NCBI GenBank assembly: GCA_018609185.1 | Contig: JAHCSD010000011.1 | Location: forward strand, 1-11,487 | Direction of reading: 5' to 3' | Origin: Patescibacteria group bacterium | Lineage (GTDB): Bacteria; Patescibacteriota; Minisyncoccia; JAHCSD01 | DNA: 11,487 nucleotides | Shown here: in pieces, positions 3,648 through 11,304 of the stretch | Numbering within the stretch: position 1 is the stretch's first letter | How the letters are laid out: each line of letters starts with the position of its first letter | The notes under the pieces: generated by a model | The model's database searches: none | Told to the model about the DNA's origin: nothing | Seen by the model: the letters and a program-made list of their open reading frames with translations, nothing else | Position numbers and translations under genes: made by a program

Positions 3648-3698
3648 CTCCCGTCAAAATACTGCCATGGCAGTATTTTGACGGGAGTTTGACGGGAG
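3648..3698. repeat. perfect palindrome P1 plus an extra half-motif, downstream of the PaaX/Cas2-like gene
   Basis: CTCCCGTCAAAATACTGCCA (3648-3667) is followed directly by its exact reverse complement (3668-3687), a 40-bp perfect palindrome with no spacer. The outer motif TTTGACGGGAG is then repeated once more in direct orientation at 3688-3698. No T-run follows on either strand, so it is unlikely to be a simple terminator. It closely resembles P2 at 4318-4365: both have CCCGTCA at the outer ends, an AT-rich middle, and a centre of the form TGYCA/TGRCA. Confidence 0.9.
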
Positions 3699-3737: not shown

Positions 3738-4301
3738 TTACTTGAACTTATATGCTCTCCGTAAATACAAATCATTTTCTATATCGCCAACTATAATCCG
3801 TATCTCGAAATCCCTTAATCCCAAAAAGTCTCTCAATAAATTAATCTCTTTCTTACATTCATGGGGATGTATCCATACGCTTTTCTGAAGCGAGTAAAAG
3901 CCGAGTTCTTTAAGCTTTCTTCTAAAGATGTCTCGCTTCATACGGTATTCGTGAGGAATATCGAAAATAATCACGCGCCATTTTCCATCCCACTTCTTAG
4001 GAATAGAGATTTCAAGTTCGTTGAGCTCGAACGTTCCGGTTATCCACTCTCCTTCTTTAGTAAGAGAAATGTGGATATCATGACCATCACGCTCAACCTC
4101 GATAAGGCCGCGCCGTCTAAGATTGTAAAACGTATTACTGAATTTTTCTTTTTCTCCTTCTCCGGGTCTTCCTCTAAAAATCTCTTTCATAAGATAGTGA
4201 GCAAAGTAAGGCGAAGAAGCGGCGACAGAAACAGTACCCACAATAAGGAGATACCTTAAAATCTTCTTTGATATGATACCGGGTTTTCTCCCTTTAATCA
4301 T
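3738..4301 (-). CDS. PaaX-like / Cas2-like domain protein with N-terminal helix-turn-helix
   Basis: A 187-aa protein in two parts. The N-terminal half (about 10-90) has a hydrophobic stretch at 15-30 and then what looks like a winged-helix region ending in L-T-K-E-G. The C-terminal half (about 100-185) is a Cas2/PaaX-C ferredoxin-like domain, with W104-D-G-K-W-R-V-I-I-F-D114-I-P, then R-R-K-L-K-E-L-G-F and Q139-K-S-V-W-I-H-P-H-E-C149. D114 is at the position of the conserved Asp of Cas2 nucleases. This arrangement is very common in Parcubacteria, where it is often labelled Cas2, but no cas1 or CRISPR array is present here. PaaX itself is a transcription repressor, so a DNA-binding regulator or a nuclease are both possible. 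I prefer the ATG at 4301; an in-frame start at 4331 would lie inside palindrome P2. Palindromes of one family lie on both sides of the gene. Confidence 0.82.
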   Translation of the reverse strand: MIKGRKPGIISKKILRYLLIVGTVSVAASSPYFAHYLMKEIFRGRPGEGEKEKFSNTFYNLRRRGLIEVERDGHDIHISLTKEGEWITGTFELNELEISIPKKWDGKWRVIIFDIPHEYRMKRDIFRRKLKELGFYSLQKSVWIHPHECKKEINLLRDFLGLRDFEIRIIVGDIENDLYLRRAYKFK

Positions 4302-4317
4302 TATAACATGGACGCTA

Positions 4318-4365
4318 TAACCCCCCGTCATATTGCTGTCATGACAGCAATATGACGGGGGGTTA
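4318..4365. repeat. perfect palindrome P2, upstream of the PaaX/Cas2-like gene
   Basis: A 48-bp perfect palindrome: the left arm 4318-4341 (starting TAACCCCCCGTCATATTG) is the exact reverse complement of 4342-4365, with no spacer. It ends 17 bases before the ATG of the 3738-4301 gene. Such a site could be an operator for the gene's own product, or the end of a mobile unit. It shares the CCCGTCA ends and the TG-Y-CATG-R-CA type centre with P1. Confidence 0.92.
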
Positions 4366-7075: not shown

Positions 7076-7226
7076 GCCAATTTTCTCAGCGAAGCAAATC
7101 TAATGCGGCTGAGCTGTTAGAAAATTGAGCACCCCGTTAGATGAGCGAGCTCTATCTAACGGGGTTAAGTTTTGGCAACCAATCGCGCTGTGCCCTTCGG
7201 GCTTGCGCTCTTGGGCCAAGCCCTTA
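7076..7226. repeat. family E three-hairpin intergenic element, copy E1 (secY to sulfhydrylase)
   Basis: In gene direction the element begins with the secY stop TAAGGGCTT and ends GGCATG at the next start. Hairpin A: CCAA 7179-7182 with TTGG 7211-7214, GCGC 7185-7188 with 7205-7208, GCCC 7192-7195 with GGGC 7199-7202. Hairpin B: 7131-7142 with 7154-7165 (12 bp, ACCCCGTTAGAT and its complement), loop GAGCGAGCTCT. Hairpin C: CAATTTTC 7078-7085 with GAAAATTG 7120-7127, with an inner CTCAGC/GCTGAG stem. No T-run follows B, so it is not a standard terminator. Confidence 0.9.
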
Positions 7227-9015: not shown

Positions 9016-9176
9016 GCCATTATTGCCCAAGAGGGCAAGCGTTAGCGCAGCCTGATTGGCTGCAATAATGAGCACCCCGTTAGATAGAGCTCGCAAGCTC
9101 GCTCATCTAACGGGGTAAGGTTTCGTAACCAATCAGCCTTCGTCCTTCGGACTCGGCTTCTTGGACAAAGCCCTTA
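9016..9176. repeat. family E three-hairpin intergenic element, copy E2 (rpsE to rplO)
   Basis: It runs from the rpsE stop (TAAGGGCTTT) to GGCATG of rplO. Hairpin A: CCAA 9129-9132 with TTGG 9161-9164, AGCC 9135-9138 with GGCT 9155-9158, GTCC 9142-9145 with GGAC 9149-9152. Hairpin B: 9074-9085 with 9105-9116 (12 bp); its 19-base loop is the exact reverse complement of the E4 loop, so B is flipped here. Hairpin C: CATTATTGC 9018-9026 with GCAATAATG 9062-9070, enclosing two smaller hairpins (9025-9036 and 9047-9063). Confidence 0.92.
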
Positions 9177-9677
9177 CTTTCTCTTCTTTTCCTTTTGATC
9201 TCCAGATGTCTTCTCCTGAGATTCTTTTTTAAACTCAGTCTTCTTTGCAGATTTCAACTGTTGTAAAGCCTTTATAGTTGCTCGCGCGATGTTGAGTTTG
9301 TTCTTTGTCCGGGACAAAAGTTTTCCGGAAACGCTATCAAGCCCTGCAAAATCACACACAACCCGTACCGGACCACCCGCGATAATACCCTTCCCGGAAC
9401 CCAGTGGTCGCAAAAATAGTTTTACGCTCGCGTATTTCGCTTCCACCATATGGGGGATGGTTCCTTCAATCATCGGAACAGTAATAAGATGCCTTTTTGC
9501 ATCGTGGATGGCTTTTTCAATCCCTTTCGCGACGTCTTTCCCTTTCGCGACTCCTACGCCCACCTTTCCGTTGCGGTTCCCGTACACCACCACCGCCCGA
9601 AAACTAAAACGACGCCCGCCCTTAACCACGCGCGCGACCCGTGCAATGTCTATTACTTTGTTTTCGTATTCTTCCAT
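9174..9677 (-). CDS. rpsE: 30S ribosomal protein S5 (uS5)
   Basis: A 167-aa small-subunit protein with the S5 N-terminal double-stranded-RNA-binding fold (V-A-R-V-V-K-G-G-R-R-F-S-F-R-A-V-V-V-Y-G, then G-K-V-G-V-G-V-A-K-G-K-D-V) and the C-terminal domain (L-R-P-L-G-S-G-K-G-I-I-A-G-G-P-V-R-V-V), typical of decoding-fidelity protein S5. It ends in a highly charged Lys/Glu tail of about 25 residues. The ATG at 9677 is preferred over an in-frame TTG at 9686. This ATG lies inside the outer stem of hairpin C of repeat E3 (CATATTT paired with AAATATG), unlike the other genes, where the stem ends just before GGCATG. The upstream gap to rplR holds the GIY-YIG element. Confidence 0.95.
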   Translation of the reverse strand: MEEYENKVIDIARVARVVKGGRRFSFRAVVVYGNRNGKVGVGVAKGKDVAKGIEKAIHDAKRHLITVPMIEGTIPHMVEAKYASVKLFLRPLGSGKGIIAGGPVRVVCDFAGLDSVSGKLLSRTKNKLNIARATIKALQQLKSAKKTEFKKESQEKTSGDQKEKKRK

Positions 9678-9730
9678 ATTTGTCAAAATTTTAGAACGAA
9701 GTGAATGAAATTTTGTTAGAAATATGAGAA

Positions 9731-10019
9731 CCCCGTTAGATAGAAAAATTATGCACTATCGTTTTTGAATCTGTGCTTCAGGTATCTTTTACCCCAAGCG
9801 GTTTTTAAGTATTCTTCTCTATGTATTGCGTCTTTTATATTATTACTCATTTCAGCATACATAAACTTCAATGGTCTACGATCTCTAGTACTCTCCACTC
9901 TACCTTTATTGTGGTCTACTAACCTTATTTTCAAGTCTTCTGTTCTACCTACATAAGATCCATTGTCTTTCAAGCTTTTCAAAACATATACGTAGTGCAT
10001 AATTTTTCATCTAATGGGG
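9731..10019 (-). mobile_element. putative GIY-YIG mobile element with terminal inverted repeats
   Basis: A unit whose outer ends are the arms of hairpin B (CCCCRTTAGATGA at the gene's 5' side, TCTATCTAACGGGG at its 3' side) and whose inner ends are 16-bp perfect inverted repeats, 9743-9758 and 9993-10008. Together they form an almost continuous 27-bp terminal inverted repeat. The inner repeats include the first bases of the ORF (ATGCACTA) and its last codons and stop (TAGTGCATAA). The four other hairpin B copies in the window share the same outer ends with only 11-19 bases between them. Mobility is an inference; no target duplication can be shown from one copy. Confidence 0.72.
9749..10000 (-). 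CDS. small GIY-YIG endonuclease-domain protein
   Basis: An 83-aa single-domain GIY-YIG nuclease of the UvrC/YhbQ-like group, often mislabelled as excinuclease subunit C. The motif is H2-Y-V-Y-V-L (GIY equivalent), Y16-V-G18 (YIG), R26 in T-E-D-L-K-I-R-L, H30-N-K-G33, and a C-terminal R61-E-E-Y-L-K-T-A-W-G-K-R-Y with the metal-binding Glu at 62 or 63. The fold's catalytic residues appear intact, so it could cut DNA. It sits between rplR and rpsE in the same orientation, fully inside the loop of hairpin B of repeat E3. Start ATG and stop TAA are both part of inverted repeats, so the ORF fits the element exactly. No Shine-Dalgarno is seen; expression would rely on the operon transcript. Whether it mobilises the repeat, homes, or is a passenger cannot be told from sequence. 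Confidence 0.9.
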   Translation of the reverse strand: MHYVYVLKSLKDNGSYVGRTEDLKIRLVDHNKGRVESTRDRRPLKFMYAEMSNNIKDAIHREEYLKTAWGKRYLKHRFKNDSA

Positions 10020-10078
10020 GTAAGGTTTTCTGACTAAATATTCTTCGCTCTTCGAGTTCGAATATTTAGAGAAAGCCC

Positions 10079-10438
10079 TTAAAACCTTAGGCCCCCCTTG
10101 CGCGCTCCTTCCGCAAGTTCCTTCACGCGCCCGTGATACTTATAGTGCCTTTTGTCGAAGACTACAACTGTGATTTTTTTTGCCTTGGCTTTCTCGGCCA
10201 AGAGCTCTCCAATCTTCGTTGCGATCTCCGCCTTTTTACCTTTTGCGGATTTTTTCAGTTCTCCGTCACTTACAGAGACAACAGTCTTACCCTCATCGTT
10301 AATAATTTGCGCATAAAGATGTTTGTTTGAACGAAATACAGAAATCCGAGGCCGGCTTTTCGTCCCTTTAATCTTCGCTCGCACGCGATGCTGTCTCCGT
10401 TTCTGCGCTGTTCGTTTTAATTTTTCTTTTACCTTCAT
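10079..10438 (-). CDS. rplR: 50S ribosomal protein L18 (uL18)
   Basis: A 119-aa large-subunit protein that binds 5S rRNA together with L5. The basic N-terminus (K-R-T-A-Q-K-R-R-Q-H-R-V-R-A-K-I-K-G-T) leads to R-P-R-I-S-V-F-R-S-N-K-H-L-Y-A-Q-I-I-N-D, and the end V-V-F-D-K-R-H-Y-K-Y-H-G-R-V-K-E-L-A-E-G-A-R-K-G-G-L-R-F is the family signature. I start at the ATG at 10438; the frame continues 15 codons up to 10483, but those codons are hairpin C of repeat E4. Order L6-L18-S5 is canonical, with the GIY-YIG insertion after this gene. Confidence 0.96.
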   Translation of the reverse strand: MKVKEKLKRTAQKRRQHRVRAKIKGTKSRPRISVFRSNKHLYAQIINDEGKTVVSVSDGELKKSAKGKKAEIATKIGELLAEKAKAKKITVVVFDKRHYKYHGRVKELAEGARKGGLRF

Positions 10439-10583
10439 GCCAATTTTGTCCGTGAGGTCACGAACGGTTTCAAAATTGAGCACCCCGTTAGATGAGCGAG
10501 CTTGCGAGCTCTATCTAACGGGGTAAGGTTTTGTTACCAATCAGCCTTCGCCTACGAGCTTGGCTTCTTGGACAAAGCCCTTA
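10439..10583. repeat. family E three-hairpin intergenic element, copy E4 (rplF to rplR)
   Basis: It runs from the rplF stop (TAAGGGCTTT) to GGCATG of rplR. Hairpin A: CCAA 10537-10540 with TTGG 10568-10571, AGCC 10543-10546 with GGCT 10562-10565. Hairpin B: 10482-10493 with 10513-10524 (12 bp), 19-base loop GAGCGAGCTTGCGAGCTCT. Hairpin C: CAATTTTG 10441-10448 with CAAAATTG 10471-10478, inner CGTG 10451-10454 with CACG 10459-10462. Confidence 0.92.
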
Positions 10584-11126: not shown

Positions 11127-11304
11127 GCCGATTTTGCCCGCGAGTCACGCGAGCGGTTACCTGCCCGCCATCGCTACGCTCAGGCGTTGCGGGCGGGGAA
11201 AATCGAGCACCCCATTAGATGAGCAAAGCTCTATCTAACGGGGTAAGGTTTTCTAGCTAAATTTTCTTCGCCCCTTGGACTCGAAAATTTAGAGAAAGCC
11301 CTTA
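11127..11304. repeat. family E three-hairpin element, copy E5 (upstream of rplF, no gene ending at its TAA)
   Basis: Hairpin A: CTAAATTTTC 11257-11266 with GAAAATTTAG 11283-11292 (10 bp). Hairpin B: 11209-11220 with 11233-11244, one A-C mismatch at 11214/11239, loop GAGCAAAGCTCT. Hairpin C: CGATTTT 11129-11135 with AAAATCG 11199-11205, enclosing GCCCGC/GCGGGC (11163-11168 with 11189-11194) and CGCG/CGCG (11139-11151). The TAAGGGCTTT end is kept at 11304, but the frame before that TAA holds only 11 sense codons after the previous stop, so here the TAA terminates nothing visible. Confidence 0.9.

Follow-up and report, generated by a model that had tools for sequence, protein, structure and literature searches.

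REPtrons combine REP sequences, which are palindromes located between genes, with RAYT transposases, and the latter belong to the Y1 HUH enzymes. To our knowledge, the enzyme classes of insertion sequences (DDE, DEDD, HUH, serine and tyrosine) do not include a GIY-YIG enzyme. GIY-YIG nucleases are well known as homing enzymes, and in Penelope-like retroelements a GIY-YIG endonuclease is used for mobility, together with a reverse transcriptase that these elements require. We know of no homing gene of which inverted-repeat arms and short target duplications form part, and of no UPF0213 protein that has been described as mobile. From CPR bacteria, GIY-YIG intervening sequences in rRNA genes have been reported (PMC11270868). 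A GIY-YIG element with terminal repeats was not encountered in the open-access titles and abstract openings that were searched; most subscription journals and bioRxiv fell outside this search, which makes the novelty of the element provisional.

In the locus described here a GIY-YIG ORF is the only gene between inverted repeats, and no transposase of a known class accompanies it. The locus lies in the window, by which we mean the whole stretch of 11,487 nucleotides that was analysed, derived from contig C66 of a Patescibacteria genome of 799 kb in 153 contigs. The window carries a ribosomal-protein operon on the minus strand, the genes of which (rplR, rpsE and the rplO-like, rplF-like and secY-like genes) were named by reading their translations and not by a search.

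Anatomy of the ORF-bearing unit and of the short copies

The coordinates of the features are collected in Table 1. The first-pass annotation of this DNA had proposed that an 83-aa GIY-YIG ORF lies inside the loop of a hairpin (B), that it is bounded by perfect inverted repeats of 16 bp which hold its own start and stop codons, and that these continue outward into the CCCCRTTAGAT arms of four short copies in the window; all three statements were borne out. The outer arms prolong the pairing of the inner ones, interrupted by a single unpaired base at 9742 and a G/T mismatch, and the ORF is surrounded by terminal inverted repeats as in a TIR transposon. Hairpin B, with the consensus CCCCRTTAGAT...ATCTAAYGGGG, adjoins two further hairpins in the order C, B, A, for which the consensus is TAAGGGCTTT...CCTTA (C) and TGCTCAATTTT...AAAATTGGC (A). 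The full unit thus consists of three hairpins across the rplR-rpsE gap, and the ORF-bearing copy possesses both A and C. At this copy no target duplication was found. No Rfam family matched at its gathering score in the window, meaning that no intron RNA structure was found, and a group I intron was rejected on this basis.

Table 1. Positions of the ORF-bearing unit, its parts and the four short copies within the window
Feature	Position	Strand	Remarks
Short C-B-A copy	7076..7226	-	between the secY-like stop and the start of the next gene; sequence pattern
Short C-B-A copy	9016..9176	-	between the rpsE stop and the rplO-like start; sequence pattern
Hairpin A, CATATTT/AAATATG stem	9675..9730	-	ends at the rpsE ATG
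Hairpin B outer arm CCCCGTTAGAT	9731..9741	.	sequence
Inner 16-bp arm with the stop codon (9749-9751)	9743..9758	.	100% complementary to 9993-10008
GIY-YIG nuclease ORF, 83 aa	9749..10000	-	sole gene between the arms; fills the hairpin B loop
Inner 16-bp arm with the start codon (9998-10000)	9993..10008	.	perfect partner of 9743-9758
Hairpin B outer arm ATCTAATGGGG	10009..10019	.	sequence
Hairpin C, minus-strand sequence TAAGGGCTTT...CCTTA	10021..10081	-	its TAA is the rplR stop codon
Short C-B-A copy	10439..10583	-	between the rplF-like stop and the rplR start; sequence pattern
Short C-B-A copy	11127..11304	-	immediately upstream of the rplF-like gene; sequence pattern

The ORF product matched the GIY-YIG profile PF01541 with an E-value of 6.4e-12. 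In an alignment of the window protein with nine relatives Y3, Y5, Y16, G18, R26, H30 and E62 are invariant, and we take these Y, G, R, H and E columns to be catalytic. Signature and conserved residues are both present and place the protein within the GIY-YIG superfamily. By profile, the closest solved structures are those of the UPF0213 proteins 1zg2 (E 1.3e-11) and 1ywl (E 2e-7); the I-TevI domain 1mk0 matched with an E-value of 0.0046. NCBIfam and PHROGs held no name for the protein. Phage and plasmid collections gave no match at 1e-5, and phage or plasmid cargo was rejected on that ground.

The four short copies in the window, with matching B arms at 7132-7164, 9075-9115, 10483-10523 and 11210-11243, each lie directly 5' of a gene. 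Genome-wide, the palindromic B pattern was recovered 56 times and its reversed control not at all, which is far above chance; four of the 56 matches are nested inside another copy. Most short copies resemble the ORF-bearing one in having all three hairpins, and at least two B hairpins stand alone (C3:2954 and C129:6037). Nine of the 56 places lacked an orientation or an A end, and 43 distinct informative copies were left after removal of nested duplicates and contig ends. In all 43 the A end adjoins an ATG with which an ORF 50 codons or longer begins on the same strand, as compared to 3 of 86 for the other two frames. At the opposite end, 22 of 35 copies provide, with the first bases of C-B-A (TAA or TAG), the stop codon of an ORF that likewise has 50 codons or more. 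The stems are well conserved as stems: over 29 copies 97.2% of the cells pair, against 85.9% (at most 88.6) after row permutation, and 20 of the 47 pairs have changed on both sides. No target duplication was found for the C-B-A copies. An A-C junction without B was absent from this genome and seen once in the other eight genomes that have a B-A junction, which we take to be chance.

Two GIY-YIG genes were detected in the genome, of which the one in the window is the sole arm-bearing one; the other is 45% identical and lies after the tmRNA gene. This paralogue (1501 onward, L002) follows the tmRNA gene (1068-1444) on its 3' side, unlike the usual 5' side. Palindromes of other families than hairpin B occur as well. 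In the window, perfect palindromes at 3648-3687 (CTCCCGTCAAAATACTGCCA...) and 4318-4365 (TAACCCCCCGTCATATTGCTGTCA...) flank the gene at 3738-4331. Elsewhere, five RAYT-type genes (L390-L394) are situated on contigs C116, C47, C142, C36 and C12, and at L390 the palindrome GAACGAGGTTAAACCTCGTTC is present on both sides.

Occurrence in related genomes

The B-A junction was recovered from 9 of the 383 genomes of the class, the window's own included, and its reversed control from none. It occurs 48 times in the window's genome (G000), 7 times in G280 and once or twice in each of the others. Among the matches listed, the closest named homologue of the window protein (80% identity) belongs to Candidatus Portnoybacteria RBG_19FT_COMBO_36_7 (L255), where a pilC-like stop codon is immediately followed by hairpin C, CCCCATTAGAT, the inner arm with the start codon, the ORF, the other inner arm, ATCTAACGGGG and hairpin A, in this order. 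The same element ORF is present in the class genome G160 and on the Candidatus Portnoybacteria contig MHMW01000027.1. A third C-B(ORF)-A, with CCCTGTTAAAT arms, was found in Parcubacteria group bacterium GW2011_GWD2_38_12 (L273), preceding a gene whose product starts with MHAQVPQFIDIEDKIVG, and a degenerate fourth unit in Colwellbacteria (L256) precedes a gene similar to that at L273. Given this similarity, inheritance or a target preference may act at the latter site. The ORF-bearing unit is thus found in three lineages at three different sites.

To evaluate the occupancy of these sites, rpsE was located in 33 genomes and its locus was obtained for 30; of the 29 loci of relatives 18 were resolved by script and 11 were not. 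The gap between rplR and rpsE spans 1-35 bp in 17 of the 18 resolved relatives, 223 bp in one, and around 400 bp in the window. The ORF is therefore not fixed between rplR and rpsE (it was fixation there that the annotation had named as speaking against mobility), and two other ORF-bearing units lie elsewhere; a fixed, vertically inherited gene was rejected in view of the short gaps. After pilC, seven same-family relatives (L400-L406) were scanned for the motifs over 923-1497 bases. Six of them show no C, B or A motif; in the seventh (L402, of G280) a pair of ORF-less CCCCGTTAGA repeats lies close to the start of a pilin-like gene, and C-B(ORF)-A is absent. Occupancy differs at both rplR-rpsE and pilC, implying that C-B(ORF)-A was gained or lost between lineages. 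Different sites as well as unoccupied sites in relatives were thus seen, in comparisons at the distance of genus, family or wider. The CCCCGTTAGA inverted repeats of L402 (strand -) are arranged in tandem and measure ~100 bp each; they are located 255-470 bases past the pilC-like gene, where the N-terminal part of the pilin-like product is encoded.

Inverted repeats, target duplications and gene starts in the wider family

Small GIY-YIG genes are present in 44 of the 55 genomes searched, and 33 genomes have two or more. We collected 111 loci (the two of the window's genome, 29 of relatives and 80 chosen by place), a set that leaves out 39 further, mostly weaker places; in relatives there are at least 150 places. 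Inverted repeats with a score of at least 11 lie right outside the ORF in 49 of the 111 loci. The control rates were 7 in 795 equal-sized windows (from 29 of the same loci) and 4.2% of mismatched flank pairs, the latter being inflated because arms are shared among loci. No inverted repeat was detected at the other 62 loci, which are mostly in other clades. The suggestion that homologues would be bounded by the hairpin arms therefore held for part of the family, including L255 with the same outer arms and both A and C, and failed for those 62. The arms of the proposed autonomous form measure 11 to about 27 bp, and the element is mostly about 260-320 bp long.

In 18 of the 49 loci the arms are bordered by direct repeats that are 4 bp long or longer, as compared to a permutation mean of 2.2 and a maximum of 8 (2000 permutations; trimming of up to 4 arm bases was allowed in data and control alike). 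When the boundary was fixed one base outside CCC, exact 4-bp repeats were present at 8 of 15 GIY-YIG elements of the CCCGTTAGA type (T1, with arms TCCCGTTAGAG; mean 1.8, maximum 6) and at 12 of 28 ORF-less hairpins with the same arms (mean 1.0, maximum 6), with 5000 permutations each. The former count leaves out L111, which by eye has TGAA on both sides; the latter is based on 30 loci minus one copy of the window's genome and one at a contig end. Such solo hairpins are present in 47 of the 383 class genomes, the window's own included, and the reversed control yielded none. ORF-less copies that share the ends of an autonomous element, as MITEs do, are thus represented both by the 56 B hairpins of the window's genome and by the solo hairpins. 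Pairs of similar copies were found as well: in G007, L114 and L116 share 94.5% identity over 309 bp, which stops at the arms, and their flanks are unrelated, with different 4-bp repeats; two copies in G032 are 87.9% identical.

The arm types T1, T2 and T3 (CCCGTTAGA, CCCAGTA and CCCxCAC) require two changes on the protein tree, which is the minimum for three states. The tree comprises 111 proteins and 84 columns, with 50 of its 108 inner branches open, and the window protein lies in a polytomy without placement. In a scan of named genomes 80 of at least 506 relatives were kept, among which the window's subfamily is abundant. By score 54 of the 80 have arms, although a few of these calls (L285, L310) are plainly not terminal arms. 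In this second set repeats of at least 4 bp occur at 8 of the 54 arm-bearing loci, four of them with T1-type arms. For the window's subfamily, the best of many offsets gave a target duplication at 4 of 43 loci, which we treat as noise because so many offsets were tried. Record titles beside Patescibacteria include bins of Omnitrophota, Bacteroidetes, Verrucomicrobia, Thermodesulfobacteriota and Cloacimonadota, which may be contaminated.

Outside the CPR, three loci (L276, L290 and L315) appear, as read by eye, to interrupt integrase- or transposase-like frames (for instance ...QAFNALVFLY..., split at TTC|AAC), and may reveal where exactly elements of the window's subfamily end. A hairpin of 46-48 nt, the arms of which read CCCGTTAGAG and the core of which resembles GCGAGGGCTCGCAGCG, is found across many families; of eight such hairpins (L178, L179, L184, L185, L191, L197, L198 and L199) six have an exact 4-bp duplication.

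At 9 of the 19 T1 (CCCGTTAGA) loci the nuclease ORF runs into the following gene, with a 4-bp overlap between its stop codon and the ATG of that gene. There the 3' arm is translated and the proteins end in ...SLTG; the duplicated target supplies the TGA, and the last A of the element together with the TG of the target rebuilds the ATG. The CCCAGTA elements duplicate TATG (L072 and L074; L069 by eye). Elements with CCCCTCAC arms are found at the 5' ends of tRNAs; their repeats are exact and at least 7 bp long at L127 and L135, and imperfect at L112. In 44 of the 111 loci the 150 bp downstream include the start of a tRNA or tmRNA gene on the same strand; no locus has such a start on the opposite strand, and in 12 an RNA gene of this kind is situated upstream, on the same strand. 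Of the 44 loci, 31 carry a duplicate of the 5' part of the RNA gene upstream of the ORF (1.3% in mismatched pairs). Considering that 38 of the 44 have no arms, the family may be divided into one branch that is transposon-like and another that is homing-like. Among the loci without an RNA gene, 35 have a codirectional protein gene downstream, which is weak evidence since this is usual in operons. Several armless clades precede one particular tRNA gene, namely tRNA-Cys (L109, L092, L120), tRNA-Lys (L139, L160) or tRNA-Leu (L129, L140, L146, L152), and in several the 5' part of the tRNA is present again upstream, as would be expected of an insertion within the tRNA gene.

Interpretation and comparison with known systems

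From the anatomy, the copy number, the recurrence elsewhere, the arms, the duplications in relatives, the congruence of clade and arm type, the gene-start placement and the lineage-specific occupancy, all of which were established by computation, we read the window element as a minimal transposable element that is composed of terminal inverted repeats and one GIY-YIG gene, has MITE-like derivatives and is aimed at gene 5' ends. We put the probability of this reading at around three in four. We also lean towards the broader view that it represents an undescribed class of prokaryotic transposons, with a GIY-YIG nuclease of ~85 aa as sole enzyme and with MITE families of its own. Members would insert at gene 5' ends (start codons and tRNA 5' ends), rebuild the gene start with their own last bases while the target supplies their stop codon, and be spread through Patescibacteria and several other phyla. 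The annotation's notion of a minimal mobile nuclease element is strengthened by the recurrence at other sites, but weakened by the lack of a target duplication for the window composite and by the single arm-bearing GIY-YIG gene in the genome. Its view of the short hairpin B copies as non-autonomous relatives agrees with the ORF-less copies that have 4-bp duplications in relatives, but needs amendment in that the repeated unit is C-B-A.

The autonomous form would consist of arms of the above length and one ~85-aa nuclease gene, a unit that in three lineages lies between the extra hairpins C and A. The nuclease would recognise the palindromic ends of its element, which may be extruded as hairpins, and make a staggered cut at a short gene-start target, be it TATG, TGA[A/G] within ATGA or the 5' end of a tRNA. 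Once the element is joined in, gap filling would produce the target duplication, and the last bases of the element would restore the start codon or tRNA end, making the insertion nearly harmless. As GIY-YIG enzymes are hydrolytic, the nuclease would make the cuts and host repair would be needed to complete the joining. The ORF-less hairpins, including the C-B-A copies behind the 48 B-A junctions, would be non-autonomous derivatives that are moved in trans. Several points count against a transposon. The window copy and C-B-A show no target duplication, no inverted repeat was detected at 62 of the 111 loci, repeats of 4 bp or longer occur at 8 of the 54 arm-bearing loci of the second set, and the window protein has no placement on the tree. 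Moreover, dozens of hairpins are matched by a single arm-bearing GIY-YIG gene, the mover could be one of the five Y1 (RAYT-type) matches of this genome, and the units of L273 and (degenerate) L256, which precede similar genes, may reflect inheritance and not movement.

The five Y1 matches (PF01797), and the likeness of C-B-A to REP sequences as intergenic palindromes, would suit a scenario in which C-B-A copies are REP-like sequences moved by a RAYT, one of them with the GIY-YIG ORF as a passenger. We consider this very unlikely, as none of the five stretches (2.2-3 kb each) around the RAYT genes contains a B arm. Instead, these genes are associated with other palindromes, with the same one on both sides in three cases, two different ones in one and one upstream only in another. 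Moreover, PF01797 matches are missing from four of the nine genomes with B-A junctions, including G280 with its seven, and the ORF-bearing C-B-A occurs in three lineages. RAYT mobilisation was rejected as the leading explanation because of the other palindromes and the missing Y1 matches. A selected RNA leader, i.e. an element for translation or processing 5' of genes into which the nuclease was inserted later or by which it was captured, would account for the ATG at the A end of all 43 informative copies and for the covariation of the stems (97.2% paired versus 85.9%). Palindromes can, however, also be kept perfect by template-switch repair. In addition, the copy number varies from 1-2 to 48 across nine genomes, the B-A pattern is absent from 374 of the 383, and solo B-type hairpins carry target duplications, all of which makes such an origin clearly unlikely. 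A leader role could nevertheless coexist with mobility, and domestication after insertion is compatible with a transposon.

A free-standing homing endonuclease, which would cut a fixed site and be copied in by recombination, with the arms as part of the target, is in our view unlikely for the window element. The armless relatives beside tRNA genes do carry a second tRNA 5' part, in the way that homing elements protect their site, and homing fits this tRNA branch better than the arm-bearing one. In the latter, near-identical copies occupy unrelated sites without common flanking homology, the arm type tracks the protein clade, and ORF-less hairpins duplicate 4 bp as well. That a palindrome happens to surround an ordinary, vertically inherited gene is barely credible: the single such copy in the genome would fit, but the control rate of 7 in 795, the recurrence at other sites in relatives and the short rplR-rpsE gap in 17 of the 18 resolved relatives do not. 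Chance was rejected on the 56 matches versus none for the reversed control, together with the control windows.

If the minimal transposable element is accepted as the explanation, another nuclease fold would join the drivers of bacterial DNA transposition, and few autonomous mobile elements would be smaller than this one of about 260-320 bp. The frequent presence of several small GIY-YIG genes in one genome of this group would be accounted for, as would the tolerance of streamlined genomes to insertions, which would land exactly at gene starts and restore these. Gene-start targeting by an enzyme of 85 aa would also be a lead for genome engineering.

Compared to the known systems, the window protein is closest by profile to the solved structures of UPF0213 proteins. 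The rRNA intervening sequences are likewise from CPR bacteria, but are found at rRNA gene sites, and the main text of that paper does not use the terms inverted repeat or hairpin (PMC11270868). The catalytic domain is shared with the free-standing GIY-YIG homing endonucleases (I-TevI, Seg), from which the element family differs by its arms and short target duplications, and the window by the lack of an Rfam intron match. Penelope-like retroelements also tie GIY-YIG to mobility, but no reverse transcriptase lies between the arms here. With REP/RAYT systems the element has in common a single-gene unit and many non-autonomous intergenic palindromes, although the sole gene is of the GIY-YIG type and the RAYT genes in the same genome are accompanied by other palindromes, none with a B arm. 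Insertion sequences and MITEs share the terminal inverted repeats, the short target duplications (in relatives) and the multi-copy ORF-less derivatives, whereas the GIY-YIG enzyme, the size of about 260-320 bp and the insertion at gene 5' ends with a rebuilt start codon set the element apart from insertion sequences.
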